Below, piece by piece: positions 1-20,342 of a stretch of 64,000 nt of DNA; the stretch's first letter is position 1, and every line of letters starts with the position of its first letter. Under the pieces are notes generated by a model that did no database searches, had not been told where the DNA came from, and was given only the letters and a program-made list of their open reading frames with translations. This DNA comes from Pseudomonadota bacterium (lineage in GTDB: Bacteria; Pseudomonadota; Gammaproteobacteria; Burkholderiales; Burkholderiaceae_C): positions 62,001 through 126,000 of the forward strand of contig JAKAZQ010000004.1 in assembly GCA_021815805.1 (NCBI GenBank), written 5' to 3'. The position numbers were made by a program, and so were the translations under genes.

Positions 1-3000
1 TCCTGCACGCCGTTGGCGTTGGCATCGCCGAGCAGGCGCCCGCGCGAACCGTCGATGAAGCCGAAGGCGCGATCGCGCGGTGCGGCGTGGCTCAGATCCC
101 CCAGCCCGATGCGATCGAACAGCTGCCCCCACTCCTGCCGCGTGCCCTGCAGCAGCCACTCCGGGGTATCGGAGTACAGCTCGCCGTCCAGTGCCTGCAG
201 CCCGGAACTCACCGAACCCTGTCCGATCAATGCATTCATGCGCGTGTACAGCGCCCCGCTCGCCGTGAGCACGACGCTGTCCAGCACGTGCGCCACCTGC
301 AGCTGGTTCGGCGTCAGGGCCAGGCTGCTGAAGGGATGCGCCGCCGCGACGGTGAACAACACCTGAGGATCGAGCACGTACTGCAGCGCGTAGGCCTGCA
401 GCGCCTGCGGACTGACGACCTGCAGGCTGGAGAAGCCGCCCACCAGCGTGCTGCCGGCAGGCGCCTGCATGAGCACGTAGGTGCGCCGCAGGTAGTGCCC
501 CGGCAGCAGGTCGATCACCAGCTTGCCGCCCAGCTTCAGCTGCGGCCCGGCGACATACAGCGTGCTGTTCGCGCCCGGCGCGACCCATGCGGTGGTGGTG
601 CCGCTGGCGCCCTGCGAGAAGCTTCCGCCGACCTGCAGGGTGCCCATCGCCTGGGGCGAGCCGAGTTGCAGCTCTCCACTGTTGTCGAGGCCGCCGGCGA
701 CTGCCGCCGCACCTTGGCTCAGCAGCACCCCGCCCGGCCTCACGACGAGGCCCGACGCCAGCCGGCTGCCCGGCCCGAGCGTCAGTGCGCCAGCCTGCAC
801 GGTGGTGGCGCCGGTGTAGGTCTGCACGCCGCTCAGTTCCTGCTGGCCGCCTTCGAGTGTCAGCCCCCCGGTGCCGCCGATCTGGCCGGAGAAGTCTCCG
901 GCGCCCTGGGTCAGCACCAGGTCGTTGCTGCCCAGCGCGACCTGCCCGGAGCCGGACAGCCCGGCCAGCGCCACCGTGCCCGCGCTGCCGGCGCCGGAGA
1001 CGTCGAGGCGGCCGTCCGCCAGTACCTGCGTGGGCGCCGCGGCGGCGCTGCCCGACAGGATCAGGCTGGCGCCGCTGGCGATGGTCGTGGGCCCCGTATA
1101 GGTGTCGCTTCCTGCCAGGGTCTGGCTGCCCGCCGCCACGGTCAGGCCGCCACTGCCGGCGATGTTTCCATGCAGGGTTCCGCTGGCCTGCTCCAGCGTG
1201 AGGGTGCGCGCGCCGAGCGCGACATTGCCGCTGCCCTGCAGGCTGCCCACCGCAGCCCCGGAGGTCGTCGCGGAGATGTCCAGCACGCCGTTGTCGGAAA
1301 CCGCCGACGATGCCACGGAGCCGCCACCGACCAGATCGAGCGTGGCCCCGCTGCTGATGGTGGTGGCGCCGGTGTAGCTCTCCGCCGCCCCCAGCCCCTG
1401 GCTGCCGGCGTCAATCTGCAGCCCGCCGCTGCCGGTGACGAGTCCGCTCAGCGTGCCGCTGGCGGCGCTCACGCGCAGCGTGCTGGCACCCAGCGCGACG
1501 CCGCCGCTGCCGGCGATGGCGCGCACGCTGGAGCCAGCCGTGGTGCCAGAGACGTCGAGCATGCCGTTGTCCTGCAACTGCGACGACGCGGCGACGCTGC
1601 CGGTGCCGGACAGCGCCAGCGTCGCGGCGCTGCCGATGCTGGTGGATCCGGTATAGGCATTGTTGCCGCCAAGGGTCTCGATGCCGCCGGACACGCTCAC
1701 CGCGCCGCTGCCCGAGATCACCCCGGAGAAGGTGCCCGCAGCCTGCGTGAGGATCAGGCCGCCCGCGCCCAGCAGCACGCTGCCTTGGCCGCCAAGGTCG
1801 TGCAGCGCGAGCGGCGCGCTGCTCGCCGAGGCGTCCAGCGCACCGTTGTCCAGTACCGTGCTGGCTCCGAGGGTGCCGACTCCCGACACCGCAAGCGTGG
1901 CTCCGCTGGCGATGCTGGTCTGTCCGGAATAGCTGTTCACCCCTGCCAGTACCTCGGTACCTCCGAGCAGCGACAGGTTGCCGCTGCCTGCGATCACGCC
2001 GCTCACGGTTCCCGAGGCATTGCGAAGGCTCAGCGTATTCGCGCCGAGGTTGATGTTCCCCTGTCCCGCGATGCTGGTGATGGACTCGGCGGCCTGCGCC
2101 CCCGATATGTCGAAGCTTCCGGCATTCGTCACCGTCGAGTTCGTGATGCTTCCGGCGCCCGCGAGGGCCAGCGCGTCCTGGTATCCGATCGTGGTCGAGC
2201 CGCTGTAGGTGTCGGCGCCACTGAAGGTCGCCTGCGCGGCGTTCACCACCACTCCGCCGCTGCCGCTGATGACCCCGGAGAAATTCCCATTGCCGCGAAG
2301 AGTCACGCTGTTGGAACCGAGGCGCAGCGTACCCGCACCACTCAGGCCGCCGAGGCTCGTCGGCGCCGTGGCTCCCGAAATATCCAGGACTCCCTGGATG
2401 GTCTCGGCAGCGCTTCCGAGCGTCCCCGTACCGCTGAGCGCGAGCTGGGCGTTGCTGGCGACGATCGTCTGGCCGCTGTAGCTGTTGCTCCCGCTGAACA
2501 CCTCGGAGCCTGCCGCGACATTCACGCTACCGCTGCCCGCGATCACTCCGCCGAAGGTCCCGGCGCCGCTGGCGATGGTCAGCGCGCTGGAGCCGAGTTG
2601 TACCTGACCGTTGCCATTCAGCGACCGCACGGCGGTCCCTGCCGAGGACTGCGAGATGTCGAGAAGACCGTTGTCGGTCACCCCTGAATCGGCGATCGAG
2701 CCGGACCCTGCGAGGCTCAGCGAGCTGGAACTGCCGATGTTCGTGCCTCCGGAATAGGTATCCTTGGCGCTGAGCTGGACATGGCTGGTACTCAGGTTCA
2801 GGCCGCCGGAGCCCTGGATGGTCCCGGCGATGGTGCCGGTGTTGTTGGTGAAACCCAGGGTCCCGGAATCGACCTCTGCGGCCGACGCCAGGGTGCCGCC
2901 GCTGAGCAGATTCAGGGTGGCGCCGTTGCTGATCTGGACCGTGCCGGTGTTGGTGTTTTTGCCGGACAGGTACGCCACGCCACTGGCCACCTGCACCGTG

Positions 3001-4229
3001 CCGCTGCCGGCGATGCTCACGGACACCGGAACGCTGTCGTCGATCAGGGTCAGGGTGCCGGCATCCTGCACGGGCGATGCCAGCGAGCCGCTGCCCGACA
3101 GGATCAAGCCTGCTCCGCTGCTGATGAAGGTGCCGCCGAACAGCGAATTGGCTGCCGTGAGAACTTCGCTGCCACCCTGCACGATCAGTTTGCCGTTGCC
3201 CGAGACATTGCCCGACCAGGGTGCAGCGGCTCCCGCCCCGGAGGTCACGATGAGGGAATTGCTGCCCAGGACGACCCCGCCGCCGCCGCTCAGCGCCTGG
3301 ACGCTCATCGGCGTCGCGCCGGCATAGCGGCTGAGGTCCAGGGTGCCCGCGACATTGAAGGCCTGCGGCGAGGAATAACTCCCGTTCAACGGGGCGAGGG
3401 ACGCTCCGGCCGCGATCGATACCGTCCCGGTGGTGGTGATGCCGTTGTTGACGCTGACTGCGCCGCCGCCCGTGATGCTCAGGTTGGCCGCGCCCGAGGC
3501 GCTGCTCTGCCCGATCGTCGAAAGCACCACCTGGTTGCCGTTGCTGTTGATGGCGCCGGCCGTGGACTGCAGCGTGACCGGAGCGGACAGCGTGACCGGT
3601 GCCTGGAAGGCCAGGGTCGGGGTCCCGTTGCCGCCGCTGCTGTCCAGCACCACCCCGCCCGAGGATGCGCCCAGATTCAGGTTCGACGACAGCGCGAGGG
3701 TCATCCCGGAGCCGATGACAGTCTGTCCGCTGCCCGTGCTTGCGGGCTGCCAGCTCGGATCCAGATTCACCCATGCCGGCGTCGTGCCCTGCAGCACATA
3801 GGCCACGGTCAAGCCCGACTGCAGGAGCATTCCGGGTGCGATCATGGACAGCGTGTAGGGCGCCGCGGAACCGGCCACCTGGAACTGCAGCCCCGACGTC
3901 CACTGCGCCGTGTTGCTGAGCTGGACCAGAGGAGTCGAGGTGGTCAACTGGACGCAGTCGGTCTGGATCGCATAAGCCAGCGAGCCGTTGCTGGTGCCGG
4001 AATACTGGGTGACCGGCCAGGCGCAAATGGCAGCCTGTGCCGAGACCCCAGGAAGGGCCAGCAAGGCACCGACCAGCGCGTCGGCCAGGCGACTGCGGCG
4101 CAACGGTGCGACGTCGTGCGCAGGCGCCGCGGCGCGGCCGAGGTGTCGCGCCCGGGAGCGCAGGCTTGCATCATCGTCGATGTTCTTGAACCCTCGTGCT
4201 CGCACGGGCGTCAGGCGGCGCTTTGGCAT
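1..4229 (-). CDS. Giant autotransporter adhesin with PATR-type repeats, 3' end beyond the window
   Basis: Translated on the minus strand from an ATG at 4229, the frame stays open to base 1, giving at least 1409 residues. The N-terminus has a long basic leader followed by a hydrophobic stretch ending in VSAQA, a likely signal peptide cleaved near residue 70. The body is Gly/Ser/Thr-rich and repetitive: about 92-residue units carry the TYSGQT / LSGTG / FSGVISGSG pattern of passenger-associated transport repeats. Near base 550 to 130 come a typical autotransporter linker (LKLGGKLVIDLLPG, then SLALTPNQLQVAHVLDS), and the C-terminal beta-barrel should begin just outside the window. A weak ribosome site (GCGAGAC) precedes the start. 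I infer a type V surface protein that exports its own passenger across the outer membrane. The ligand is unknown. Confidence 0.85.
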   Translation of the reverse strand, partial: MPKRRLTPVRARGFKNIDDDASLRSRARHLGRAAAPAHDVAPLRRSRLADALVGALLALPGVSAQAAICAWPVTQYSGTSNGSLAYAIQTDCVQLTTSTPLVQLSNTAQWTSGLQFQVAGSAAPYTLSMIAPGMLLQSGLTVAYVLQGTTPAWVNLDPSWQPASTGSGQTVIGSGMTLALSSNLNLGASSGGVVLDSSGGNGTPTLAFQAPVTLSAPVTLQSTAGAINSNGNQVVLSTIGQSSASGAANLSITGGGAVSVNNGITTTGTVSIAAGASLAPLNGSYSSPQAFNVAGTLDLSRYAGATPMSVQALSGGGGVVLGSNSLIVTSGAGAAAPWSGNVSGNGKLIVQGGSEVLTAANSLFGGTFISSGAGLILSGSGSLASPVQDAGTLTLIDDSVPVSVSIAGSGTVQVASGVAYLSGKNTNTGTVQISNGATLNLLSGGTLASAAEVDSGTLGFTNNTGTIAGTIQGSGGLNLSTSHVQLSAKDTYSGGTNIGSSSSLSLAGSGSIADSGVTDNGLLDISQSSAGTAVRSLNGNGQVQLGSSALTIASGAGTFGGVIAGSGSVNVAAGSEVFSGSNSYSGQTIVASNAQLALSGTGTLGSAAETIQGVLDISGATAPTSLGGLSGAGTLRLGSNSVTLRGNGNFSGVISGSGGVVVNAAQATFSGADTYSGSTTIGYQDALALAGAGSITNSTVTNAGSFDISGAQAAESITSIAGQGNINLGANTLSLRNASGTVSGVIAGSGNLSLLGGTEVLAGVNSYSGQTSIASGATLAVSGVGTLGASTVLDNGALDASASSAPLALHDLGGQGSVLLGAGGLILTQAAGTFSGVISGSGAVSVSGGIETLGGNNAYTGSTSIGSAATLALSGTGSVAASSQLQDNGMLDVSGTTAGSSVRAIAGSGGVALGASTLRVSAASGTLSGLVTGSGGLQIDAGSQGLGAAESYTGATTISSGATLDLVGGGSVASSAVSDNGVLDISATTSGAAVGSLQGSGNVALGARTLTLEQASGTLHGNIAGSGGLTVAAGSQTLAGSDTYTGPTTIASGASLILSGSAAAAPTQVLADGRLDVSGAGSAGTVALAGLSGSGQVALGSNDLVLTQGAGDFSGQIGGTGGLTLEGGQQELSGVQTYTGATTVQAGALTLGPGSRLASGLVVRPGGVLLSQGAAAVAGGLDNSGELQLGSPQAMGTLQVGGSFSQGASGTTTAWVAPGANSTLYVAGPQLKLGGKLVIDLLPGHYLRRTYVLMQAPAGSTLVGGFSSLQVVSPQALQAYALQYVLDPQVLFTVAAAHPFSSLALTPNQLQVAHVLDSVVLTASGALYTRMNALIGQGSVSSGLQALDGELYSDTPEWLLQGTRQEWGQLFDRIGLGDLSHAAPRDRAFGFIDGSRGRLLGDANANGVQ
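805..2960 (-). repeat. Tandem ~276-base repeats coding for PATR passenger units
   Basis: Inside the autotransporter gene, the codons for the Y-S/T-G anchor recur at about 812, 1095, 1375, 1651, 1929, 2206, 2477 and 2754, a spacing of 271 to 283 bases (about 92 codons). A shorter, degenerate unit follows near 2949. Each unit reads roughly YSGQTIVAS, LALSGTGTLG, LDISGA, LSGAGTLRLGSN, FSGVISGSG. The units differ in DNA sequence, so this is an old, diverged array rather than a recent expansion. Confidence 0.8.
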
Positions 4230-4443
4230 ATTTGTCTCGCTGTTGAACAGTGCAATTTCGGGATGGATGGACTGCGCGTTATTCTGCAGACAAAACCATC
4301 TACAAAAACTTCGGCGAGCGACTCTGGTAATCGCACAAAGTTCCGGCGATGGTATGTCGTGAACCCGCCCGAAAAATGCCCGTCACACTCATCAAATACA
4401 CGATTCAAGCCAGCGCAACGCTCCAAAAAATGCGCTATTTACC

Positions 4444-4706
4444 GGCTGTTGAAATACCGCCGGGGGGTCGCGTTGGTGCCGCATCGGGATGATGGGCGTG
4501 CGCCGGATCTTGCGCGGGCCGGGCGCCCGCGCAAGATCCGGGGTGCCGCCAGCGCCCGATTCCGCACCAAGCCTTCGGGCGCAGGCGCTGCGGGCGATCT
4601 GCGGCGTTGCCCAGGCAGGCCAGGCGCCCAGCCTGGCCTTGGCCTGGGCGCCTTGCAGCTCATCCCGCAGCGCCTGCGCGCGGCCCCCTGCGGTATTTCA
4701 ACAGCC
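4444..4706. mobile_element. MITE-like element with 17-base terminal inverted repeats
   Basis: The sequence ggctgttgaaataccgc at 4444-4460 is matched by its exact reverse complement at 4690-4706, enclosing about 230 bases with no coding capacity. Inside lies a perfect hairpin with 16-base arms, 4503-4518 against 4526-4541, around a 7-base loop. Perfect terminal repeats, small size, no transposase and an internal palindrome fit a miniature inverted-repeat element. I saw no clear target-site duplication. A structural RNA or protein-binding repeat is an alternative. Confidence 0.5.
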
Positions 4707-5047
4707 TGTTAATCGTTCATCGCTTCCTGGATTTTTTGAAAATCACCCGGTATACCGGCGGGGGCAGCCGGCGACGCCCCGCCCGGTCCCGCGCGGTGGC
4801 GCAAACCCGGTGGCCAGCGTGGCAGCGCGCGGCGGCGTGCACCGCGGTGCCGCCCGCGGCACCGCGTCGGGATCGCGGGCGCGGCGCAACCGGCAGGTTG
4901 TCGCAAAACCCCTGGAGAGCGCAGGGACGCAGCATCGGGGTGCTGGCCTTGCGGCGGACCGCGCAGCGGGCCGGGCGCCCGCGCGGGCTTCGGGCCAAGC
5001 TGGGAGCCTGGCCCCGCGGCTGCAACGCCGCATGCGCCCTGATAACA

Positions 5048-5094
5048 GGCTGTTGAAATACCGCAGCGGGCCGCCCTGGGGTATTTCAACAGCC
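5048..5094. repeat. Third and fourth copies of the inverted-repeat end, forming a hairpin
   Basis: ggctgttgaaataccgc recurs at 5048-5064, and 15 bases of its reverse complement follow at 5080-5094 after a 15-base spacer, so the pair can fold into a stable hairpin. It sits 10 bases past the stop codon of the PAS-GGDEF gene, so it may act as its transcription terminator. The 4690 and 5048 copies also face each other as an extended inverted pair sharing a further taaca/tgtta, enclosing 4712-5042. A 19-base block at 4514-4532 is repeated at 4966-4984 in that interval, suggesting a second, decayed element. Confidence 0.6.
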
Positions 5095-5103
5095 TGACAA
5101 GGC

Positions 5104-6102
5104 TCACCCCGAGGGGTTCGGCGCCTGCTCCGCGGCGATGGTGCGGGCACGCCCTGCGGCCTTGGCGGCGTACAGCGCCTTGTCGGCGCTGCCGAGCAAC
5201 CACGCCAGCAGATCCCCGTCGGCGGGGCCGTTCCAGGCGGCCAGGCCGACGCTTACCGTCAGTGCGCCCAGCGCCGTGCGCACCGCGCGCACGCCCTCAT
5301 GCACACGCTCGGACACGCTCCGCGCGATGCCGGCGTCGGCACCGGGAAGCCACAGCACGAACTCCTCTCCGCCGAGGCGGATCACCAGGTCGGTGGCGCG
5401 CACGCTGGCGCGCAAGCGCTGCGCCAGCGCCACGAGCACGCGGTCGCCTTCCGGGTGCCCGCAGGCATCGTTGATGCGCTTGAAATGGTCGACGTCGACG
5501 AGCAGCAGCGATCCCACGCAGGCGTGCCCGCTGGTCGGTTGCCAGGCATGCAGCGCCAGTTCGAGCGCACGCCGGTTCTTCAGGCCCGTCAGGGGATCCG
5601 TCAGGCTGAGTTCGGACAACTCGCGATTGCGCTGCTCGACGCGTTCAGCGCGTTGCGACAGTTCGTGGTTCAGTCGCTCCACCTGCTCGCTGCTTGCCGC
5701 CAGGCGAGCCGCCAGGCCTTCGGCATCGGCGCGCGCCTTGATCAGTTCCGCCTCGAAGCGACTGCGCTCCAGCGCGACGAACACTGCCCACACGATGAGG
5801 TCCTCGGCGTCGGCGCCGCCCCGCTTGCGCACGGCATTCAGCATGACCGGGACGGGCACGCCGTCGGCGCCGAGCAGGTGCAGGTACAGCTCCTTGACGC
5901 CCTGCGCATGCAGCAGCATCGGAAACATGTAGGTCTGCGCGAAAATGCGCGCCGCCGGCGGCAGCAGTTCCTCCATCGGCCGGCCGTGCCAGTGGCGCTG
6001 CGTGCCGCCGACGATGCGCAGGAACTCGAGGTTCATGCGCTGCACGCGTCCCTGCACATCGGTCACCATCATGGCGCAGGGGATGTCATCGACCGCCAGC
6101 AT
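5104..6102 (-). CDS. PAS-GGDEF diguanylate cyclase
   Basis: A 332-residue cytoplasmic sensor and cyclic di-GMP synthase. An N-terminal PAS domain (about residues 1-115; MLAVDDIPCAMMVTD, then PVPVMLNAVRKRGG) is followed by a coiled-coil linker rich in Glu/Arg (about 120-170) and a C-terminal GGDEF domain. The active-site loop reads RLGGEEF, with an RATD inhibitory (I-site) motif five residues before it, so it should be active and subject to product inhibition. I chose the ATG at 6102 (preceded by GGCGGGAGCAAGG) over an upstream one inside the preceding gene. The start lies inside the 3' end of the RsbQ-like hydrolase gene, implying translational coupling. The PAS segment resembles that of Bacillus RsbP from memory. 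No membrane segment is visible. Confidence 0.9.
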   Translation of the reverse strand: MLAVDDIPCAMMVTDVQGRVQRMNLEFLRIVGGTQRHWHGRPMEELLPPAARIFAQTYMFPMLLHAQGVKELYLHLLGADGVPVPVMLNAVRKRGGADAEDLIVWAVFVALERSRFEAELIKARADAEGLAARLAASSEQVERLNHELSQRAERVEQRNRELSELSLTDPLTGLKNRRALELALHAWQPTSGHACVGSLLLVDVDHFKRINDACGHPEGDRVLVALAQRLRASVRATDLVIRLGGEEFVLWLPGADAGIARSVSERVHEGVRAVRTALGALTVSVGLAAWNGPADGDLLAWLLGSADKALYAAKAAGRARTIAAEQAPNPSG

Positions 6103-6121
6103 GGCCTTGCTCCCGCCGAAC

Positions 6122-6952
6122 TCAGGTGCGCGCGTAGAACCCGCGCATGGCATCGATCACCTGGTCCGGGTGGCTCATGTGGGCGCAATGCCCGGCCACG
6201 TCGAGCACGCGCAGGCTGCTGTCGTGCAGGTGATGGTGCAGGTACTCGCCAACCGCCTGCGGCGCCAGCGAGTCGCGTGCGTGCTGCAGGATCAGGCTGG
6301 GCGTGCGCACCCGCGGCAGGTCGGCCCGGTTGTCGGCGAAGAACGTGGCACGCGCAAACACCCTGGCGGCCTTCGGATCGGTCGAGCAGAAACTTTGCGA
6401 CAACTCGCCGGCCACGCCCGCTTCGCCCGCTTCGTTCTTTTCGCCCTTTTCGCCCGACACGATCGTGCCGAGAAGACTGGCCCAGCCGATGTAATTCTGG
6501 TCCATCAGCTGCAGCATGCCCTCCAGGTCGGCTGACTCGAATCCCCCGTGATAGTCGGGGGGATGGTTGAGAAAGCACGGCGATGGACCGATCAGCACGA
6601 GATCCGCGAACCACTCGGGCCGAAGCGCCGCCGCCAGCAGCCCGATGCTGCAACTCACCGAATGCCCGACGAAATGCACCCCCGCGCGCAGCCCGAGCGC
6701 ATCGAGCATCTCCAGCAGGTCCTGCACATAACCGTCCAGCGAGGCATGGCGCACGGGGTCGAAGCCCGCCGGATCCGAAAGACCGCTGCCCGGGTAGTCG
6801 AACAGTACCTGGCGGTGCGTGCGCTGAAAGGCCGGCGTGACCTGTCGCCACATGCGGTGGTTGCAGCCGAAGCCGTGGCCGTACACCAGCACGGGGGCAT
6901 CGGGCACATCCGCTTCCAGGATCTGGATATGTTGTCGGTCGAGCGTGTGCAT
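6122..6952 (-). CDS. RsbQ-like alpha/beta hydrolase (putative ligand-sensing receptor)
   Basis: About 276 residues of alpha/beta-hydrolase fold. The nucleophile elbow is GHSVS, the acid is in LQHARDSLAP and the histidine in GHCAHMSHPD. Blocks GHGFGCN, FDYPGSGLSD, GPSPCFLNHPPDYHGGFE and NYIGWA closely follow Bacillus subtilis RsbQ as I recall it, so this belongs to the RsbQ/KAI2-D14 group, in which the enzyme acts as a receptor or processes a small hydrophobic ligand. Between NYIGWASLLGTIVSG and the next conserved block (SFCSTDP) is a Gly/Glu/Ala-rich insert (EKGEKNEAGEAGVAGE). The start is uncertain: 6952, 6961 and 7021 are all in frame, none with a strong ribosome site, and 6952 best fits family length. 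The stop codon lies 20 bases upstream in coordinate terms of the start of the PAS-GGDEF gene, on opposite sides of the boundary at 6102-6122; the two genes are separated by only 19 bases or overlap if the longer cyclase start is used. Confidence 0.85.
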   Translation of the reverse strand: MHTLDRQHIQILEADVPDAPVLVYGHGFGCNHRMWRQVTPAFQRTHRQVLFDYPGSGLSDPAGFDPVRHASLDGYVQDLLEMLDALGLRAGVHFVGHSVSCSIGLLAAALRPEWFADLVLIGPSPCFLNHPPDYHGGFESADLEGMLQLMDQNYIGWASLLGTIVSGEKGEKNEAGEAGVAGELSQSFCSTDPKAARVFARATFFADNRADLPRVRTPSLILQHARDSLAPQAVGEYLHHHLHDSSLRVLDVAGHCAHMSHPDQVIDAMRGFYART

Positions 6953-7317
6953 GATGGGCATCGGGTATGTGGCGCAGGCGCCTCGACCCGCGCAATCCTG
7001 CACCATTGTGCCCCCGAACATGGGCTCTCGACTGTCAGATTTGTCGCAAAAATCCTCATTTTCGGCCGCGCCGGGTGCCTGTCACCCGGCGTGTCCAGCC
7101 CGCGCGCCCTGCGCGCCGGATCACGCGATGCGCCATGCATGCCGGAGCGACAAGCCATGCGCAGGCTGCGGGTCGAGCGTGATGCGCGCCCTGGCGTCAG
7201 CCATGGCGTCGAATCCGCAAGCCCGACGCCGTGGCCTGCCGTGGCGCTGGCCGTGTCGGACGGCGGCCGCGTCGCCGCGCTGCATGCGGCCACGTGGGAG
7301 CAGCGAGGCCGGGGTAC
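6953..7317. other. Intergenic region between the NRPS 3' end and the hydrolase
   Basis: A 365-base gap (296 if the hydrolase starts at 7021). It is GC-rich except for an A+T-rich patch at about 7036-7063, which would suit a promoter for the hydrolase-cyclase pair on the minus strand, but no clear -35/-10 pair is visible. No convincing small gene or terminator was seen. Confidence 0.4.
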
Positions 7318-10300
7318 TCACTGCGCGGCGCCGCGCCGTGCCCATCGCCGGCCGAAGCGCTGCAGCCACGACGAGCGGGCAGCCGGCGCAGGAGCCTGCG
7401 CCTGGTTGCCGGCAGGCAGCTGGACTCCGACGGCGAGTTGCGCCAGGGTTTCGTGCACCATGCGGCGAAGCGGCAGGCGCTGCCCCGTGGCCGCGGCGAA
7501 GCGCGAGGCGACCTGGTTGGCCAGCAGCGAGTGCCCACCGACATCGAAAAAATTGTCGCTGCGCCGGACTTCCGGCACTCCCAGCAATTCCCGCCAGATA
7601 CCCGCGAGCAACTCCTCGACGGGGCCTTGCGGCGGATCCTCGACGGCATGTCCGCTGCCGACGCCTTCGCCCGGCGCAGGCAAGGCGTGGCGGTCGACCT
7701 TGCCGTTGGGCAGGCGTGGCAGCGCCTGCAGCACATCGATCCCTTGCGGAACCATGTAGCCCGGGAGTTCCGTGCGCAAGGCCTCGCGCAGCTGCGCCGC
7801 CAGCGGCTGCTGTCCCGGCTGCGGGGCGACGTAGGCCACCAGTCGTGCGCCACCGACAAGGTCGTCGCGCAGCACCACCACGCATTCCGCGACACCGGGC
7901 TGACGCAGCAGCGCCGACTCGATATCCCCGGTTTCGATGCGATAGCCACGCAACTTGACCTGGAAGTCCAGGCGTCCCTGGTGTTCGAGCCGTCCGTCGT
8001 GGCGCCAGCGCCCGCGGTCGCCCGTGCGGTACATGCGCGCGGCGCCGCCCGCCGCCGACTCGGGCAGGAAGCGCTCGCGGGTGAGTTCAGGACGCTGGTG
8101 ATAGCCGATGGCAACCCCGTCTCCGGCGATGTGGATCTCTCCACTGAAACCGATGGGGCACGGTTCGCCGAATTCGTCGAGCACATGCACCCGAGTGTTG
8201 GCGATGGGGGCCCCGATGCTGATTCGCGCCGCCTCCCGCGGAACCTTCCAGCACGTGGACCAGACGGTGGTCTCGGTGGGGCCGTACAGGTTCCATACCT
8301 GCGCGCAGCGCTCCCGCAGCGCCCCGGCCAGTTCCGGATGCAGCGCTTCCCCGCCGATCAGCGCACGAAAGCCCGGCCGTGGCTGCCAGCCGGCGTCGAG
8401 CAGCATGCGCCAGGTGGCAGGGGTGGCCTGCATCATGGTGGCCGAACTGGCCTGCAGCCGCTGCTGCAAGGCCTGCGCGTCCGCCGCTTCGTCGCGCGTG
8501 GCGATGCAGACGCACGCTCCGACGTACAGGCCGAGCAGCAATTCGAGTACTGCGATGTCGAAACTCAGCGTGGTCACCGCCAGCAGTACGTCGTCAGGGC
8601 CCATGCCGGGCGCGCGCGCCATCGACACCAGGAAATTGACCACGGCATGGTGCGGCACCAGCACGCCCTTGGGCTTGCCGGTCGATCCCGAGGTGTAGAT
8701 CATGTATGCGGGATCCTGCGGTGTCGCGCCGGTGCCTGCGGGCGGCACGCCGGCCCTGTCGGCCTGCGGCGCCGGCACGGCTCCCGCGCGGGGCGGCACG
8801 AACAGCGCAACGTCGAACCCGTCCCAGCCCGGGCGCGAGGCCTCGTCGGCCAGCACAAGCGCCGGCCGGGCATCGTCGATCATCGCCCGCAGCCGCGCGC
8901 GGGGAAACTCCGGATCCAGCGGCACGTAGGCGGCGCCCGTCTGCAGCACCGCCAGTTGCGCCACCACCATGTCGACGCCGCGCTGCATTCCCAGTCCGAC
9001 AAAGCATCCGCGCCCGATTCCCTGAGCGCGCAGTCGTTGCGCCAACTGCGCCACCGCGGCCCACAGCGTCGGGTAGTCCAGCTCGACTCCACCGGCATCG
9101 CGCAGCGCGATTGCGCGGCGGTTGCGCTGCCGCTCGAGCAGTTCGATCACGGTCGCGGCGCGGGGCAGTTCCATCGCGGTGTCGTTCCATCGTGCGATGC
9201 GCTCGCGTTGCGACGGGGATGCGCTCCACAGACGGTGCAGCGCCTGTGCGGGGTCTGCGAGCGCGCGCTGCAGTCCCTCCAGGTACAACTGCGCAAGCTC
9301 CTGCATGCTGGCGGGCTCGAACAGTTCAGTGGAGTAGTCGAGAATCAGGGCCTTGAGACCTTCGGTGCTGACGGTCAGCGACAGGTCGAACTGGACCCAT
9401 TCCGACGGCAGGGATACATGGCTGGCTTGCAGCCTGGAGAAACGCAGCGGCGCGTGCGGACTGTTGAGCACGTTGAACAGCACCCTGGGCTGCACCCCGC
9501 CACCCGGGCTGCCGCTGGCCCGCAGGCGCTCGACCAGATGGTCGAACGGCAGATCCTGGTGGCTGAAGGCTCCCAGCGCCGCGGGGCGTACCTCCTCGTG
9601 CAGGAAGGCACCGAAACTGAGCTCCGGATCCACACGCGTGCGCAGCACCAGGGTGTTGACCAGCGACCCGACCAGCGTCTCGGATTCCAGGCGGGTGCGT
9701 CCGGCGATCGGAAAGCCCACGGCCACGTCGTGCTGCCCACACCAGCGTCCAAGCAGCGAAGCAAACGCGGCGTAAAGGGTCATGAACGGCGTGACCCCCT
9801 GGCGCGCGCCGAAGGACTGCAGGCCGAGCAACCACGCGTCGGACAAGGGTACGCGCAGGCGCGCACCGCGGCTGCCCTCGCGCCGGCCGTTTCCCTTGTC
9901 CACCGGCAGGTTCAGCGGGCTCATGCCGCGCAGCCGCTGCAGCCAGTAGTGCAGCTGGGAAGCGAAGGCCTCGCCGCCGAACTGCCTGCGCTGCCATGCG
10001 GCGTAATCGGCGAAACCCAGTTCAAGCTGCGGCAAGCGCGCCGCACCAGCTCCTGAATGGGCTTCGTAAAGGAGGTTGAACTCGCGCACGAGCAGCGCGA
10101 ACGACCAGTCGTCGGTGACGATGTGGTGCATGGCCAGCACCAGCAAGTGGTGGTCGTCGGCGATGCGCGCGAGCAGCAGGCGATGCAGGGGTCCGCGCTC
10201 GAGGTCGAAGGGCATCGCGGCCCGCCTGGCCGCGGCATCGAACACGGCGCGCTCGCGCAGCGCCGCGTCGGCCGACGTGTCGTCGATCGCGAGATCCTCG

Positions 10301-13300
10301 ATGTGCGCTGAGGTCGGCGGATCGATTCGCGCGTGCGGCAGTTCGCCGGACAGTTGCACACGGGTGCGAAACGCCTCGTGGCGGGCAACGAGCTCATCCA
10401 GCGCAAGCTGCAGGGCCTTGCGGTCGAGCGGGCCGACCAGTCGCAGCGCGAGCCGCACGTTGTAGGCGCCGCTTTCCGGGTCGAGCTGGTAGAGCAGCCA
10501 CATGCGCTGCTGGGAGAACGAAAGCGCCAGCGGACCGTCGCGGGCGATGCGCTCGATACCCTGCTGCGCCGCGTCGGCGCAGCCGCCGCGCATGCGCCGC
10601 TGGATTTCCGCGGCGAGTTCCGCCACCGTGCGATGATCGAACAGCGCCTGCAACGGCAACTCGACCCCGAGGCTGGATTGAATGTGCGACGCCACCTGGG
10701 TGACGTTGAGGGAATGTCCGCCGAGGGCGTAGAAATCCTCATGCACTCCGAAGCCCGATCGATGCAGCACGCTCTGCCAGATTTCCAGCAGCATGGCTTC
10801 CAGCGGCGAGCGCGCCGCCGTGGGCGCGGCCTGCGCACGCTCACGCGGCTCGGCCAGGGCCTTGCGATCGATCTTGCCGCTGGGCAGTCGCGGCAAGGCA
10901 TCCATGCGCACGAAGCTCGCCGGCACCATGTACTCGGGAAGTGCCTGCCGCAGCGACTTGCGCAACGCCGGCGCATCGAGTTCGTCGGCGACGGCGTATG
11001 CGACCAGCCGCGGCACGCCGGCATCCTGGCCGTGCACGACGACCGCGGCCTGGCGGACTCCCGCCTGCAGCCTCAGCACGGCCTCGATCTCGCCAAGCTC
11101 AATGCGCAGCCCGCGCAGCTTGACCTGCTGGTCGGCGCGACCGAGGAATTCCAGGCTGCCGTCGGCGCGCCAGCGCGCGACATCGCCGGTGCGATACATG
11201 CGGCCGCCGGGCTCCCAGGGGTCGGCCACGAAACGCTCGGCGCTCAGGTCCTCGCGCCGCAGGTAGCCGCGCCCGACCCCGATTCCAGCGATATGAAGCT
11301 CCCCGCTCGCGCCCACCGGCTGCAGTTGCCCCTGCGCGTCGAGCACATGCACCCGCACATTGGGCAGCGGACGGCCGACCGGCACCATGCGCAGGCGCGG
11401 ATCGCAATGCGGACTTTCGACATCGAGCCAGTTGCTGCAGATGGACGTCTCGCTGGGGCCGTAGCTGTTGCTCAGCCGAGCGCCGGGGAAGCGCTCGAGA
11501 AAGCGCTTCGCAAGTGCCGGATCCAGCGGCTCGCCGCCGCAGATCATGTGGCGCAGCGGCAGTTCCAGTCCTTCGGCCGGTTCGTCGAGCAAGGCGCGCA
11601 GCAGGCTCGGAACAAGGCCGGCGATGGTGACCCGCTGCTCCGCCAGGATGCGCAGCATGCGACGCATGTCGGCCTGGCTGCCGGGTTCGGCCAGCACCAG
11701 TCGCGCACCACGGACGAGGGGCGCGAACACCCGCCAGATCATGGCGTCGAACGCGATGGAGGTGCTCAGCAGCAGGCCGTCATCACGGGTCAACGCCAGG
11801 CGTTCGCACAGGACGTGCACCACATTGCGCAGGCCCTGCTGCTGGATCAGCGCGCCCTTGGGCGTGCCCGTGGAACCCGAGGTGTAGATGACATAGGCCA
11901 GGTGTCGCGGCAGACTGCGGGGCAGCGTTCGCGCCATGCTGCCCGCGGCGGCCTGCGGCGCCTGCGCAGAATCCGGAACGCTGAACACCCGGCAACCACG
12001 TTCGGCGAGCGTCGAGGCATCGAGCCATGCGGGGGCGGTCATCACGGCACGGGGGCTGGCGTCCTCGAGCATCGCCAGCAGGCGCTGGCGGGGATGCTCC
12101 GGGTCGAGCCCGAGGAAGGCCGCCCCGGCCTTGGCGACCGCCAGCAGGCACACCACCATCGCCGGGCCGCGCGGCAGGCAGACGGCCACCAGATCCTCCG
12201 GACCGACGCCGGCGTCGAGCAGCCAGCCGGCCCAATCGGTCGACAGTCGTTCCAGGCGCGCATAGCTCATGCGCTGCGATCCCATCTGCAGCGCAATGGC
12301 CTCGGGGTCGCGCACAGCCTGCGCGCTGATCAGTTCGTGCAGCGGGGTGTCCAGCGGGAACGCGCGCGGCGGCGCCTGAAACTCCCGCAGCAGCGCATGC
12401 CGCGCGGCCTCGTCGGTCAGCGCCAGGCGGTCGATTGCCCGCGACGGCTCGTCGACGATCTCACGCAACAGACAAAGGTAGGCCTGCGCAAAACTCCGGA
12501 TGGTCCCGGCCTCGAACAGGTCGCTGCGATAGCGCCAATAGGCAGCCCCTTGCTGTTCGTCGTCGAACACCGCCACGGAAAGATCGAACAGGCTGAAGTG
12601 GCGCAGCAGTTCGACATACTCGCTGGACATCCCGGGCAGTTGCAATGCGCGGTCGGGAATGCTCTCCAGCGAGAAGGCTGCCTGGCACAGCGGGTTGCGC
12701 CCGGGTTGCGCGACCGCGGCCGCGGCGCTGACGACTTCGGCGAAAGGGAGTTCAGCGTGGAGCAGAGCCTGCTCGACACGGGCATGGGTGGCCGCGAGAA
12801 AATCCGCAAAGCCGGGCGCCGGCACTGACTCGTCGACCCTGGCGCGGATCGCCAGGGTGTTGACCAGATAACCCACGCTGTGCGCGGCGTGTGCGCCGCG
12901 GCGCACGGCCGCCGGCAGGCCCACGGCCACGTCGCGCACGCCTGCCAGGCGCATCAGCAACACCTGGAACGCCGCCAGGTACACCCGGGTACGGGTGGTG
13001 CCGTGGCGGCTGGCCAGTGCTCGAAGCGCGGCGCCGAGGCTGCGCTCGATGGGCACGCGCAGCGTGGCGCCAGCGTAGCGCGCCTGGCTGTCGCGCAGGA
13101 AATCGGTCGGAAGGTCGAGTGCCGGAGTGGCTTCCAGAGCCTGCTGCCAGTAGTCGCGATGAGAGTCGAATTCGCCCGCTGCCCGGCGCGCGCGCTCCTC
13201 GTTGGCGAACTCGATCGGGCCCCATGCGGCGACCGGCAGTTCGACCGCCGCGCCGTCGCCGGCATACAGACGACCGAGTTCGCGGTGCAGCAACGCCAGC

Positions 13301-13800
13301 GACGTGCCGTCGCCCACGATGTGATGCACCGCCAGCACGAACAGATGCTGTCTCGGGTCGATGCTCCAGCAGGCGGCACGCACCAGTGGAGCCCGCTGCA
13401 GATCGAATGCCCGCCCGGGGCCGCGTTCCACCCGCCACGCCAGCGCGTCGCCATCGGCCTCCTCGGCGGCGATCGACCCGCGCACGAATTCCGCAGGGCC
13501 GACGGCAGCGGCCGCAAGCTGCTGCTGTCGCCAGCCCCGGGCCTCGCGAACCAGCCGTATGCGCAGCGCCGGGTGGCGTGCGACCAGAACCTGCAGACAG
13601 CGCTCGAGACGGTCGACATCCAGCGCTCCGTGCAGCCGTGTGGCGCGGCAGATCACGTAGGCCTGGTTGGCCTCGCCCGAGGCTGCGATCAGCGCCAGCG
13701 CCTGCTGGGCGCCCGACATTGCAGCGGTGGGTTCGGTGCCGGTGAGTTCGGGATCGGGTTGGCGGTCCACGGCGATTCGATCGTCCTGACGATTCTGCAT
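7318..13800 (-). CDS. Two-module non-ribosomal peptide synthetase, C-A-T-C-A-T, no release domain
   Basis: A 2160-residue multimodular enzyme starting at the ATG at 13800 (MQNRQDDR), with GCAAGG upstream. Domains in order: condensation 1 (HHIVGDG near residue 158), adenylation 1 ([11 protein letters not shown] near 637; [16 protein letters not shown]), carrier 1 (GGHSL near 1026), condensation 2 (HHIVTDD near 1223), adenylation 2 ([11 protein letters not shown] near 1700; [11 protein letters not shown]), carrier 2 (GGHSLL near 2087) and an Arg-rich tail. By alignment to GrsA, the second adenylation pocket reads D-I-L-Q-I-G-L-V-W, very close to the known glycine code. The first reads D-A-W-G-I-G-S-I-C, which I cannot assign beyond hydrophobic. 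Beginning with a condensation domain suggests an acylated start or an upstream partner. No thioesterase, reductase, MbtH-like protein or phosphopantetheinyl transferase is nearby, so product and release route are unknown. Confidence 0.93.
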
Positions 13801-14260
13801 GAGGGCTTGCCTTGCGCGAGGATGCGGCGTACGACGATGACTCCGATTGTCCGGGCTTGGATGCGGTTGCGTAAGTCCACGAACACCATCGGATACACAT
13901 GGCGCGCCGCCGGCGGCGCACGCTGCCACCGCGGGCGACCGCGCGGCGCGTCGCCTGCCTGCAAGCCTGGCACAGGCATGTTCACGCAGCACCGCGCGCA
14001 TCTGGCGCATGCACTCGAGGCCATCTTGATGCGGCGCGTTGATGACGGCCGGTTCGCGGGCGCCTGGCCGTGCCCGGCGCCGCTGCCCCCCAGGCGTCCG
14101 GCCGGGCAAGCCCGCGGCTTCGCAGGACGCGCCCGAGCCCGTTGCGCCCTGCGCGTCGGGGCGCACACTGCGCCGATGCTCCCGCGCGGGGAGTGCGGCA
14201 ACGCCATCCGCCCCCGGCACGGTTCGCGGGCGTCGCTGCGTGCCGCGAGCCGCGCTTGCC
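13801..14260. other. Intergenic region upstream of the NRPS
   Basis: 460 bases between the NRPS start and the guaA stop. Open frames here are only readthrough of the NRPS frame and lack matching coding character. It should contain the NRPS promoter. I see no clear promoter hexamers, operator palindrome, riboswitch or terminator. It marks the boundary between the accessory block and the conserved guaA-guaB region. Confidence 0.4.
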
Positions 14261-15853
14261 TCACTCCCACTCGATGGTCGCCGGCGGCTTCGACGAGATG
14301 TCGTAGGTGACGCGGTTGATCCCCCGCACCTCGTTGATGATCCTGCTCGACACGCGTTTCAGCAGCGCATACGGCAACTCCGCCCAGTCCGCCGTCATGA
14401 AGTCGCTGGTGTTCACCGCACGCAAGGCCACCACGTAGTCGTAGGTGCGACCGTCGCCCATCACGCCAACGCTCTTCACCGGCAGGAACACCGCGAAAGC
14501 CTGCGAGGTCAGCTCGTACCAGGTGCGTCCGCTCGCGGCATCGCGCGTGCCGCGCAACTCGTCGATGAAGATCGCGTCCGCCCGGCGCAGCAGGTCGGCG
14601 TACTCGCGCTTGACCTCGCCGAGGATGCGCACGCCCAGGCCGGGCCCGGGAAACGGATGGCGATCCACCATCTCCGCCGGCAGGCCGAGCGCCTTGCCGA
14701 GTTCGCGCACCTCGTCCTTGAACAGCTCGCGCAGCGGCTCGAGCAGCTTCAGGCCGAGGGTCTGCGGCAGGCCTCCGACGTTGTGGTGGCTCTTGATGGT
14801 GCTGGCCTTCTTGGTCTTCGCCCCCCCGGACTCGATGACATCGGGGTAGATCGTGCCCTGCGCCAGCCACCGCGCGCGCTCGAGCTTGCGCGCCTCGCGC
14901 TGGAACACCTCGACGAACTCGCGCCCGATGATGCGGCGCTTGCCCTCGGGGTCGGACACGCCGTGCAGAGCCTGCAGGAACTCGGCGCTGGCATCCACGT
15001 GCACCACCTTGGCGTGCAGGCGCCCGCGGAACATGTCCAGCACCATGCGCGCTTCGTCCTGGCGCAGCAGCCCGTGGTCGACGAACACGCAGGTGAGCTG
15101 GTCGCCGATGGCGCGGTGGATCAGCGCCGCGGCCACGCTCGAATCCACGCCGCCCGACAACCCCAGGATGACCTGCTCGTCCCCGACCTGCTCGCGGATG
15201 CGCTGCGTGGCCTCGGCGATGTAGTCGCCCATGACCCAGTCGCCGTCGCAGCCGCAGATGTCGCGCACGAAGCGCGTCAGCATGGCCTGCCCCTGCACGG
15301 TGTGCGTGACCTCGGGATGGAACTGCAGCGCGTAGTAGCCGCGCGCCTCGTCGGCCATGCCGGCGATCGGGCAGCTCGGCGTGCTGGCCATGAGCCTGAA
15401 CCCGGGCGGCAGCGCGGTCACCTTGTCGCCGTGGCTCATCCACACCTTGAGCATGCCGTGACCCTCGGCGGTGTGGAAGTCCTCGATGCCGTCGAGCAGT
15501 CGGGTATGGCCCCGCGCGCGCACTTCGGCATAGCCGAATTCCCGATGCTCGCTCCACTCCACCTTGCCGCCGAGCTGCGCGGCCATGGTCTGCATGCCGT
15601 AGCAGATGCCGAGCACCGGCACGCCGCAATCCCAGACGGCCTGCGGTGCGCGCAGTTCCTGCGACTCGTAGGTGCTGGCGTGGCTGCCCGACAGGATGAT
15701 GCCCTTCAGGCCCTCGGCGAGCATGTCGCGGATGAAGGCGTCGTCGACGTCGTTGGGGTGGATCTCGCAGTACACGTGCGCCTCGCGCACGCGGCGCGCG
15801 ATCAGCTGCGTGACCTGCGAGCCGAAATCCAGGATCAGAATTTTCTGGTGCAT
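14261..15853 (-). CDS. guaA: GMP synthase (glutamine-hydrolysing)
   Basis: A 530-residue enzyme that converts XMP to GMP using glutamine and ATP, the last step of guanine nucleotide synthesis. An N-terminal class I glutamine amidotransferase domain starts [13 protein letters not shown] with the catalytic cysteine in GICYGMQ (Cys84). The central ATP-pyrophosphatase domain has the LSGGVDSS loop near residue 230, and the C-terminal dimerisation domain ends in the family's usual PPATIEWE. The start at 15853 fits the family; upstream codons in the frame belong to the guaB 3' end region. It lies 19 bases after guaB, so the two are almost certainly one operon. Confidence 0.98.
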
Positions 15854-15872
15854 GAGGTCGGGCGCGAAGCGC

Positions 15873-18005
<2,133 letters not shown>

Positions 18006-18042
18006 CTAGTGTCCTGTCCCGTATTACGGGACAGGACACTAG
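18006..18042. terminator. Perfect 37-base palindrome between convergent genes
   Basis: Arms ctagtgtcctgtcccgta (18006-18023) and their exact reverse complement (18025-18042) flank a single base. It begins 13 bases after the DUF4124 stop, and the far arm contains the TAG stop of the asparaginase gene. Its position fits a shared bidirectional terminator, though there is no T-tract on either side, and so long and perfect an arm could also be a mobile-element end or dispersed repeat. Confidence 0.5.
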
Positions 18043-19037
18043 CGCAGACCCTGGAGCAGCAGGCGCACGCGCACCTTGACGGCATTCAGGCCGTCGAAAT
18101 CCCCGCCCTCGCACGGCCCGTTGCGCGGCACCACGTGCACCTGCACGCCCGCATCGCGCGCCTCGTCGAGCGCCGTCTGCAACTGCGCGTGCACGGTGCC
18201 ACCGCCGGTGCCGAGCACCACCAGCGCCGACAGCGGGGGCCGCACCAGCCCGTCTCGCGACGCCGCCAGCAGCGCGCGCACCACCGCGCCGTCGGCCCCG
18301 GCATGGCTCGACACCAGTTCGACGCGCGGCCATTGCGCCTGCTCGGGCTCACCGCGCCATGGCGCGCGCCAGCCCGCCGCGGCGCCCGCCGGCAGCTCGC
18401 GCGTGAAGCGCAGCCCGCGTGCATCGATGAACCCGAGCGGGCCGCGCTCTCCGGAGCCGAAGGCATCGACGCGGGCGGGATGCTGCTTGCCGACATCGCG
18501 TGCCGCGTGCACGCGGCCGTGCGCGACGCAAAGCACGCCGTGGCCGGCGGCCTGCGCATCCGCAGCCACGCGCACGGCATCGAACAGGTTGCGCGGACCG
18601 TCCGCCGACAACGCCCCGGCGGGCAGCATGGCCGCGGTGCAGACCACCGGGGAACCCGGCTCGAGCAGGCAGTCCAGCGCGTAGGCCGTCTCCTCGAGGG
18701 TGTCGCTGCCATGCGTGATCACGCACCCGCCGGCTCCGGCCTCGGCACGCCACTGTCGCACCCGCTGCGCCAGCTGCAGCCACAGCAGCGGCTGCGCGTC
18801 CTTGCTGTCGATGTTGCAGACCTGTTGCAGCTGCAGCCGCGCCAGCCCGTCCACTCCCGGCGCGCCCTGCAGCAGTTGCTGCAGGCCGAGCACGCCGGCG
18901 GTGTAGCCGGCACCCGTGGCCCTGTGTGCGTCGGGCGCGACCCCGGCGATGGTGCCGCCGGTGCCGAGCACCAGCACACGCGAAAGCTCGGCGGCCGGCG
19001 CATGCGCGCCGTCGTGCGACGAAGGGAAGTCTTGCAT
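18039..19037 (-). CDS. L-asparaginase
   Basis: A 332-residue asparaginase/glutaminase-family amidohydrolase converting asparagine to aspartate and ammonia. The first nucleophile motif is GTGGTIAG (Thr29). The second reads [14 protein letters not shown], where the position usually held by a second active-site threonine is serine and the following aspartate is kept. No signal peptide is visible, so it is probably cytoplasmic. The start at 19037 ([10 protein letters not shown]) is the ATG nearest the divergent lexA; the ribosome site is weak, and an upstream extension would run through lexA. The promoter must overlap the lexA SOS box region. The symbol is left blank because type I and II naming cannot be settled from sequence alone. 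Confidence 0.9.
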
Positions 19038-19048
19038 GATGCGGAAAT

Positions 19049-19064
19049 CTGTACAAAAATACAG
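19049..19064 (+). promoter_or_regulatory. LexA (SOS) box
   Basis: CTGTACAAAAATACAG matches the CTGT-N8-ACAG LexA operator. It lies 40 bases before the lexA start and 12 bases before the divergent asparaginase start, so it should provide lexA autoregulation and could affect both genes. Confidence 0.85.
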
Positions 19065-19103
19065 CAGAACATTCATACAGTGCCTGCCCGAGGAGCCGCC
19101 TGC

Positions 19104-19775
19104 ATGACCCAAGCCGCGAAGCTTACCGCCCGCCAGGAGGAAATCCTCCGGCTCATCGCGCGCAGCATCGAGCGCAGCGGCTATCCGCCGACGCGCGCCG
19201 AAATCGCCGCGGAACTGGGCTTCCGTTCCGCGAACGCCGCCGAGGATCACCTGCATGCCCTCGCGCGCAAGGGCATGCTGGAACTGGCCTCCGGCACCTC
19301 CCGCGGCATACGCCTTACACCGCAGGCCCGCACGGCGTTGCGCCCCGCGGGTGCGGCTGCGGCGCTGGCGCGCGCGCTGCCCGGCATGGAACAACTGATG
19401 CTGCCGCTCATCGGGCGCGTGGCCGCCGGGCACCCGATCCTGGCGCAGGAGCACGTCGAGGCCACGCTCGGCGTCGACCCCGGGCTGTTCAGCGCCCGCC
19501 CCGACTACCTGCTCAAGGTGCGTGGCGCCAGCATGCAGGGCGCCGGCATTCTCGACGGCGACCTGCTGGCGGTACGCCAGACCCAGGACGTGCACAACGG
19601 CCAGATCGTGGTCGCGCGCCTCGGCGACGAGGTCACGGTCAAGCGCCTGCGGCGCGGCGCATCGCGTGTCGAACTGCTGCCCGAGAACCCCGATTTCCAA
19701 CCCATCGTGGTCGAGCAGCACCAGGCGTTCGCGATCGAGGGACTGGCCGTCGGCCTGCTGCGCAACGGCATGTGA
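19104..19775 (+). CDS. lexA: SOS-response repressor and self-cleaving protease LexA
   Basis: 223 residues. The N-terminal winged helix-turn-helix (about residues 1-70; [26 protein letters not shown]) binds SOS boxes. The C-terminal S24 protease domain has the cleavage site in GRVAAGHP (Ala108-Gly109), nucleophile serine in GASMQG (Ser143) and the general-base lysine in VTVKRL (Lys180). RecA filaments trigger self-cleavage on DNA damage. AGGAG lies nine bases before the ATG, and an SOS box is 40 bases upstream. Its 3' end is six bases from that of the convergent RraA-like gene. Confidence 0.98.
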
Positions 19776-19781
19776 CGCGGC

Positions 19782-20342
19782 TCACGGCGCCGGCAGGTCG
19801 ATGTCCGGGTCGGCATCGCCGCCATGCAGCGGCTGCCGGCTGACCAGTATCCCGTCGGCGTCGGCATACAGCCACTCGCCGGGGCGCACCGGCACGCCCT
19901 GGATACGCACCGGCACATCGCACTGGCCGGAGCCGAGCTTGCGCGGCGGCACCGGCATGCTGCCGAGAGCCCGCACCCCCAGCGCGCTGGCCTGGATCTC
20001 CTGCACGTCGCGCACGCAGCCGTCGATCACGACGCCGGCCCAACCGTTGCGCAGCGCGAGCGCGGCAAGTTGTCCGCCGAGCAGCGCATGACGCAGCGAG
20101 GCTCCGCCGTCGATCACCAGCACGCGCGCCATGCCCGCCTGCTCGAGACTCGCGCGCACCAGCGAGTTGTCCTCGAAGCATTGCACGGTGGCAACCTTTC
20201 CGAAAAAGTGTCCCTGACGCCCATAATGACGAAATACCGGGGGAAGTGCCCGGACGTCGCCGCGCGCGATCGCGTCCGTCTGCTGGTCGCAGAAATCGCA
20301 GGTGTTCACGGCTGCGGCGGCCGGCATTCTCGAGGTAGGCAT
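19782..20342 (-). CDS. RraA-like protein (ribonuclease E activity regulator family)
   Basis: 186 residues of the RraA/MenG fold. Blocks GHFFGKVATVQCFEDNSLV, VLVIDGGASLRHALLGG and GVVIDGCVRDVQEI are typical, and E. coli RraA has the closely related FGGQIITVKCFEDN. Unlike E. coli RraA, the central loop keeps R-D-x2-E as in hydroxymethyl-oxoglutarate aldolases, but the acidic residue normally 21 positions before that arginine is glycine, so an aldolase site looks incomplete. The start at 20342 has GGAGAG just upstream; an earlier ATG at 20369 has none. The N-terminus carries CDFC, an unusual pair of cysteines. Role inferred: inhibitor of RNase E or a related function. Confidence 0.8.
   Translation of the reverse strand: MPTSRMPAAAAVNTCDFCDQQTDAIARGDVRALPPVFRHYGRQGHFFGKVATVQCFEDNSLVRASLEQAGMARVLVIDGGASLRHALLGGQLAALALRNGWAGVVIDGCVRDVQEIQASALGVRALGSMPVPPRKLGSGQCDVPVRIQGVPVRPGEWLYADADGILVSRQPLHGGDADPDIDLPAP

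Follow-up and report, generated by a model that had tools for sequence, protein, structure and literature searches.

A probable RsbQ-PAS sensing module with diguanylate cyclase output in a Burkholderiales genome

Within a 64,000-nucleotide stretch of contig JAKAZQ010000004.1 (hereafter the window, meaning the whole stretch of DNA that was analysed) two adjacent genes on the minus strand specify what we regard, with a probability of roughly 0.84, as a bipartite RsbQ-PAS sensing module in which an alpha/beta hydrolase is wired to a diguanylate cyclase. Nadezhdin, Brody and Price (2011; PMC3183031) described RsbQ and the RsbP-PAS domain as a module, with diguanylate cyclases among its outputs, and the pair is a fresh example of this published arrangement. 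As far as our searches went, what lies beyond the literature found is a locked register in the linker between the PAS and output domains, a natural fusion of the hydrolase, PAS and GGDEF domains, and a second hydrolase pair elsewhere in the same genome.

The hydrolase gene (6122..6952, minus strand) encodes an RsbQ-type protein of 276 amino acids (P0001). In a phmmer comparison with solved structures its nearest relative was Bacillus subtilis RsbQ (1wom; E 7.5e-82), followed, among the 60 matches listed of 157, by Olei00960 (E 3.9e-66) and by plant D14/KAI2 chains from E 4.6e-47. Identity to 1wom is 49% (126 of 256 aligned residues). Alignment to S96, D219 and H247 of RsbQ places the catalytic triad at Ser98 (6659-6661), Asp227 (6272-6274) and His255 (6188-6190), and the RsbQ cavity and gate residues F27, V97, F136 and F196 are all retained, as F28, V99, F138 and F204; the roles of these RsbQ residues are taken from PMC3183031. 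The motifs named in a sequence-only reading of the DNA (FGC, FDYPGSGLSD, GHSV, GPSPCFLN and GHCAHMSHP) were all found, and the RsbQ pattern which that reading saw in them is, at the E value quoted, far above chance. The catalytic Ser and Asp occur in 32 of 32 aligned hydrolases and the His in 31. An RsbQ relative at L018:6001-6801 carries Asp in place of the catalytic His and still has its RsbP-PAS partner; it is either a non-catalytic receptor or the product of a sequencing error in a MAG. A separate observation concerns the lid region, where the window hydrolase has an insertion of about six residues of a near-tandem GEK/GEA type (6409-6457), the longest at that place among the 32 aligned relatives (L066 has three extra residues, L011 one).

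The cyclase gene (5104..6102, minus strand) encodes 332 amino acids, and both genes thus stand where the sequence-only reading had put them. Its product consists of an RsbP-class PAS domain (residues 8–110; 5773..6081), a continuous 56-residue helix which is a putative coiled-coil lever (residues 111–166; 5605..5772) and a GGDEF domain (residues 167–324; 5131..5604). The latter is recognized by Pfam at E 9.1e-38 and has, as had been proposed, an intact GGEEF active site (5359-5373) and an RxxD inhibitory site, here RATD (5389-5400), five residues before it. GGEEF is invariant in all 27 aligned single-PAS cyclases and is accompanied by the other near-invariant GGDEF positions. An AlphaFold2 model of the monomer, built from these 27 sequences, shows a PAS-like N-terminal domain with the corresponding strands and helices, the single helix 111–166 (assigned by DSSP) and the GGDEF domain, with a mean pLDDT of 90.2; since the pTM is 0.55, the relative placement of the domains is unreliable. 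A fold search with the model returned generic PAS-GGDEF and GGDEF matches.

The longest open reading frame of the cyclase starts at 6153, within the hydrolase gene. The start was placed at the methionine at 6102 because this codon is preceded by GGGAG and because it and the residues that follow (MLAVDD) are kept in five congeners, whereas the residues upstream are not. This leaves a 19-nt intergenic gap (6103..6121) holding the GGGAG ribosome-binding-site-like sequence. The genes had been thought adjacent or overlapping; they are adjacent, and the overlap disappears with the later start. Twelve nucleotides past the cyclase stop is a hairpin of 41 bases (5051..5091) which may be the transcript end; the stretch 5040-5106 folds at -34.7 kcal/mol (z -5.9). 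The hairpin is formed by the terminal repeats of a dispersed element, a palindromic repeat of ca. 260 bp seen at 4445-4705 and 5049-5093, with terminal inverted repeats of ca. 30 bp beginning GCTGTTGAAATACC. The genome has 11 matches to it of at least 240 bases at 91–100% identity (the window copy included), many partial ones, and 35 exact copies of its 14-mer; the hairpin that follows the cyclase gene resembles a copy of the repeat that has collapsed. Rfam gave no match within the window.

Pfam recognizes the N-terminal domain of the cyclase as PAS_4 with 24.2 bits against a cut-off of 23.1, a match weak enough that better evidence for the PAS domain was required. Nine residues of B. subtilis RsbP (C10, L13, L48, Q53, F55, C56, Y59, E72 and P86) are characteristic of PAS domains partnered with RsbQ (PMC3183031). 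With the numbering and consensus classes of that paper, rather than an RsbP sequence, as the reference, the window PAS reads C, M, L, R, F, A, Y, E and P at these positions, the spacing from C10 to P86 being unchanged. The three altered residues (L13, Q53 and C56) fit the published consensus classes as read from the legend (hydrophobic, basic and hydrophobic, respectively), and there is also a P at position 62. The resemblance to RsbP suggested by the sequence-only reading is thus borne out from C10 to P86. Among 82 aligned PAS domains (the window's own copy, one family relative at L010, 75 loci from a genome collection and five plasmid loci) F55 is found in 76, P62 in 80, E72 in 80 and C10 in 70. 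The domain is the N-terminal one of the protein, and the hydrolase gene immediately precedes it; by eye its end shows no DIT motif and reads VALERSRFEAEL. The linker that follows is the 56-residue helix of the monomer model and belongs to a set of heptad-spaced lengths, the class being described as having a potential coiled coil of at least 21 residues.

Association of the two genes extends well beyond this genome. The genome collection yielded 144 confirmed stretches with relatives of the hydrolase, of which the best 80 were analysed; a partner was counted as directly downstream when the start of an RsbP-PAS profile match (E≤1) fell no more than 60 bases ahead of, or 250 bases beyond, the end of the hydrolase frame. 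By this measure 75 of the best 80 have such a partner, one of them (L087) on the strength of a 52-residue stub at a contig end. As to the other five, the sequence of L080 ends 148 bases past the hydrolase, at L089 a PAS-kinase frame lies directly upstream rather than downstream, and no RsbP-PAS match turned up in the available stretch of L039, L074 or L076. The 75 partner proteins, some of them cut by contig ends, include 57 with a Pfam match to GGDEF, 14 to EAL and 13 to HisKA (E≤1e-5), and no PP2C-type family appears among the 15 families listed for them; since the search began from a cyclase-linked hydrolase, these output shares favour the relatives of that protein. In a sample of 398 genomes of the phylum the hydrolase was matched at E≤1e-60 in 20, its own included. 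The 22 loci besides the window's own comprise 19 with an RsbP-PAS match downstream, one in which the domains are fused (L120), and two (L116 and L121) without an RsbP-PAS match within about 1.5 kb. The neighbourhood of RsbQ homologs is therefore not random, a point on which the earlier proposal depended. Within the genus of the window, 6 of 27 other genomes (several of them incomplete) carry the hydrolase at E≤1e-60, and for this reason we consider it accessory there.

The fusion is a single open frame of 585 residues (L120:580-2337, minus strand) on a 4.1-Mb contig (G324:C1) of a genome of the same class as that of the window. It contains the hydrolase, RsbP-PAS and GGDEF domains, and is the sole frame with both hydrolase and RsbP-PAS matches among all loci examined. 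The passages on fusion in PMC3183031 and PMC12143880 describe no such case. Plasmids carry relatives of the window hydrolase in 68 records, and six loci (L092–L097) were examined from the 30 matches listed. The partner is annotated as a SpoIIE phosphatase in Streptomyces (L093), as a histidine kinase in Neorhizobium (L095) and Hymenobacter (L097), and as an ATP-binding protein with an H-box-like motif in Salinimonas (L096); in Paenibacillus (L092) it is a PAS-GGDEF frame, and the Arthrobacter locus (L094) has no RsbP-PAS match in the available stretch. These partner types match the three output classes given in PMC3183031.

The length of the linker was measured by script in 105 RsbP-PAS frames, duplicates dropped, from the conserved leucine at its start (RSRFEAEL) to the DxLT of the GGDEF domain or to the phospho-acceptor histidine. 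Seven frames are without the first anchor and two without the second, and 48 have no output motif within 80 residues, many of them owing to a further PAS domain. Among the 33 cyclases with a direct link, a distance of 49 occurs in 24 frames, 21 in four, 35 in three, and 42 and 20 in one each; the 20 belongs to the fusion L120, in which two anchors are possible and a stricter anchor rule gives 21. The 15 directly linked kinases have distances of 23, 30, 37, 44, 51 and 58, all 15 equal to 2 modulo 7. In these frames the distance from PAS to output thus changes by sevens only in 32 of 33 cyclases (33 of 33 with the second anchor rule) and in 15 of 15 kinases, with anchors that make no use of the number seven. 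Since many of the sequences are related, we also counted distinct lengths, of which there are four in the cyclases and six in the kinases. The cyclase of Paenibacillus, a member of the Bacillota, shares the distance of 49 with that of the window. A constant register supports transmission of the signal via a fixed-register coiled coil common to the cyclase and kinase outputs. The literature search found no report of a seven-residue linker register for RsbP-PAS proteins, and the word "heptad" is absent from the available text of PMC3183031.

The published example closest in design is that of Psychromonas ingrahamii (A1SVT3; PMC3183031), which has in common with the window pair an upstream hydrolase, an N-terminal RsbP-PAS domain, a helical linker, one GGDEF domain and the class residues. 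Judged by the description in that paper, the 2011 module and the window pair are alike in architecture, both being without the DIT motif at the end of the PAS domain, and differ in host genus and sequence. With B. subtilis RsbQ-RsbP the pair shares the hydrolase family, triad, gating residues, PAS class and gene order, but the output there is a PPM phosphatase. That a GGDEF domain replaces the Bacillus phosphatase had been claimed from the sequence, and the Pfam match on the partner agrees; the only match to a SpoIIE-type phosphatase in the genome is a weak one (27 bits) on another contig. The plant receptor hydrolases KAI2 and D14, members of a family with the triad and a lidded pocket, are related to the window hydrolase, which is much closer to RsbQ, and their partners are plant proteins. 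The phytochrome-linked cyclases of the PadC type (PMC9587094) likewise use a coiled coil to connect a sensor with a GGDEF dimer, and many of its lengths are multiples of seven apart; there, however, the sensor is for light and is fused in one chain, and 54% of the linkers fit sevens as opposed to 32 or 33 of the 33 RsbP-PAS cyclases.

How might the module work? Most likely the cytoplasmic RsbQ-like hydrolase would serve as the receptor, with a small molecule passing two gating phenylalanines to reach the Ser-Asp-His pocket. Once loaded, the hydrolase would alter its contact with F-alpha of the partner PAS domain (in RsbP, the face with F55 and Y59). From there the change would be relayed along the 56-residue helix, presumed to form a coiled coil in the dimeric cyclase, and the two GGDEF domains would be reset so as to make c-di-GMP, with feedback inhibition through RxxD. 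In B. subtilis the contact between RsbQ and the PAS domain is direct, both the binding of RsbQ and signalling are disrupted by the F55A substitution in RsbP, and the triad is required (PMC3183031); a predicted 2:2 RsbP-RsbQ complex places RsbQ between the PAS domains and linkers, in a module coupled to kinases and cyclases (PMC12143880). By analogy, direct contact through F-alpha and a need for the triad would be expected in the window pair as well. The natural fusion lends support to hydrolase-PAS contact, and fits a wiring that runs from receptor through PAS contact and lever to cyclase. The signal would presumably raise rather than lower c-di-GMP, and may thereby affect adhesion or motility. 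Since the genome has 36 GGDEF (one below cut-off), 27 EAL and 3 PilZ matches, the window cyclase is one c-di-GMP input among many. In the available texts our literature search found no measurements of binding, activity or phenotype for a member of the cyclase type, and according to PMC3183031 B. subtilis was the one case with a known target.

Within the module the order of events could be different, and PMC3183031 leaves open whether the hydrolase or the PAS domain is the primary sensor. In Model 1 of that paper the hydrolase is an enzyme which converts a metabolite and hands the product to the PAS pocket, the PAS being the sensor. The nearly complete conservation of the triad also fits turnover, as do the null phenotypes that, according to the summary in the same paper, B. 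subtilis shows when triad residues are substituted, and we give this order of events somewhat less than an even chance. Against it, conservation of the PAS domain centres on F-alpha, which is needed for RsbQ contact in B. subtilis (PMC3183031 allows that ligand binding is possible there too), and the window hydrolase is related to the KAI2/D14 receptors. The relative without the catalytic His (L018) keeps its pair, which mildly favours a receptor, provided that the substitution is not a sequencing error. On this evidence we lean towards the hydrolase, rather than the PAS domain, as the probable primary sensor. A GGDEF domain need not be an enzyme either, as GGDEF proteins that serve as nucleotide-binding outputs exist; with GGEEF and the other near-invariant positions conserved in the 27 aligned single-PAS cyclases, an output of this kind, making no c-di-GMP, appears improbable here.

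The position of the pair raises the question of its neighbours. A two-module nonribosomal peptide synthetase (NRPS) gene (7318-14220, minus strand; two condensation, two adenylation and two carrier domains by Pfam, with no thioesterase in the Pfam list) ends 365 bp upstream of the hydrolase on the same strand. This position would suit a hydrolase acting as a stray thioesterase or tailoring enzyme of the NRPS, with the cyclase as an unrelated neighbour. The 49% identity of the hydrolase to RsbQ and the RsbP-PAS class signature of the cyclase speak against this, as do the congeners. When window positions 1-20000 were compared by blastn with six congener loci, the matching stretches lay within 5119-6941 in five and at 5709-6888 in the sixth, and beyond the pair there was a single 94-base repeat match. 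The flanks of these loci differ: MutS and a chaperone-usher operon at L011, with an usher also at L013 and L015; a cytosine/purine-type permease and another PAS-GGDEF protein at L012; an asparaginase at L014; and a mechanosensitive channel at L034. Because the alignment is limited to the hydrolase and cyclase genes while the congener flanks differ, we take the two genes to be a conserved unit. The NRPS side is without a blastn match at all six loci, within upstream flanks of about 1.6 to 6 kb, so a partnership with the NRPS was rejected; the NRPS looks unrelated to the pair, and a stray NRPS enzyme is in our estimate the least credible of the explanations considered.

A partnership with an adhesin was also weighed. 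At L011, L013 and L015 a chaperone-usher fimbrial operon is found downstream of the pair (a PapC-type usher in all three; the PapD match was tested in L011), but the common mutS flank (by Pfam for L011, by eye for L013 and L015) makes this one event. Downstream of the pair in the window is a long, repeat-rich Ser/Gly/Ala open reading frame (1-4229, minus strand, continuing to G000:C58:61286) which, by eye, looks like an autotransporter-type surface protein; it has no Pfam match at E≤0.001. With one event in three congeners, different flanks at L012 and L014 and no Pfam match for the window frame, the adhesin link was set aside as a hint only.

A second hydrolase pair lies outside the window (G000:C18:15303-18955, equivalent to L099:2304-5956). 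Its hydrolase, P0003 (G000:C18:15303-16130), is 30% identical to that of the window and matches KAI2/D14 at E 8.7e-53 (D14L) and RsbQ at E 4.5e-41, the best match overall (E 6.6e-54) being a chain named alpha/beta-hydrolase; by this ranking of scores it is probably KAI2/D14-like rather than RsbQ-like. Its stop codon overlaps the GTG start (GTGA) of a 942-residue frame, P0004, with three PAS stretches, a GGDEF domain whose motif is degenerate (LDADRF) and an EAL domain with intact EALLRW and DDFGTG. The first 130 residues of P0004 are without a Pfam match (apart from one at E 3 in one of the 10 aligned members), a solved chain better than E 0.57 or a match to the window-cyclase profile; they may be either an unrecognized domain or a divergent form of a known fold.

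Hydrolases of the P0003 type (E≤1e-45) were found in 10 of 27 other genomes of the genus and, for other genera in the sample, in 0 of 72. In 10 of the 10 other genomes of the genus a frame with the P0004 N-terminal domain (profile A3) follows the hydrolase; its start appears 7 bases before the end of the hydrolase stop codon in nine and 31 bases after it in the tenth (L136). EAL was read in nine of these ten partners, all but that of L142, and is present in eight, the ninth (L140) being cut by a contig end. On the 398-genome phylum sample the profile of the second type (A4) and the RsbQ profile (A2) picked out an identical set of 20 genomes, that of the window among them, and at the level of profile matches the sample gave no sign of the second pair outside the genus. 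Plasmid relatives of P0003 number 68 records, and four loci (L144–L147) were examined from the 30 matches listed: one has a sensor cyclase 289 bp past the hydrolase, in a frame without an RsbP-PAS or A3 match, one has a hydrolase followed by an RsbP-PAS kinase, and two have no signalling gene directly downstream. Our literature search found no description of a KAI2/D14-like hydrolase paired with a GGDEF-EAL protein. A wider picture, which we hold to be rather doubtful, is that the genus steers c-di-GMP both ways by RsbQ/KAI2-like hydrolases, the window pair making it and the second pair degrading it; receptor hydrolases would then have recruited two or more mutually unrelated partners, RsbP-PAS and the new domain among them, to one second messenger, the RsbP-PAS branch signalling via a heptad-locked lever common to cyclases and kinases.

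No ligand for RsbQ is named in the available portions of the literature examined, and a compact two-gene pair with c-di-GMP as its output would be a handy reporter for finding ligands of RsbQ-type hydrolases. The natural hydrolase-PAS-GGDEF fusion (L120) is a ready construct for structural work, and with the linker register constant in cyclases and kinases alike, the idea that both outputs share a mechanical coupling is open to direct test. Lastly, the second pair hints at a further class of c-di-GMP control by coupled hydrolases, undescribed as far as we have searched.
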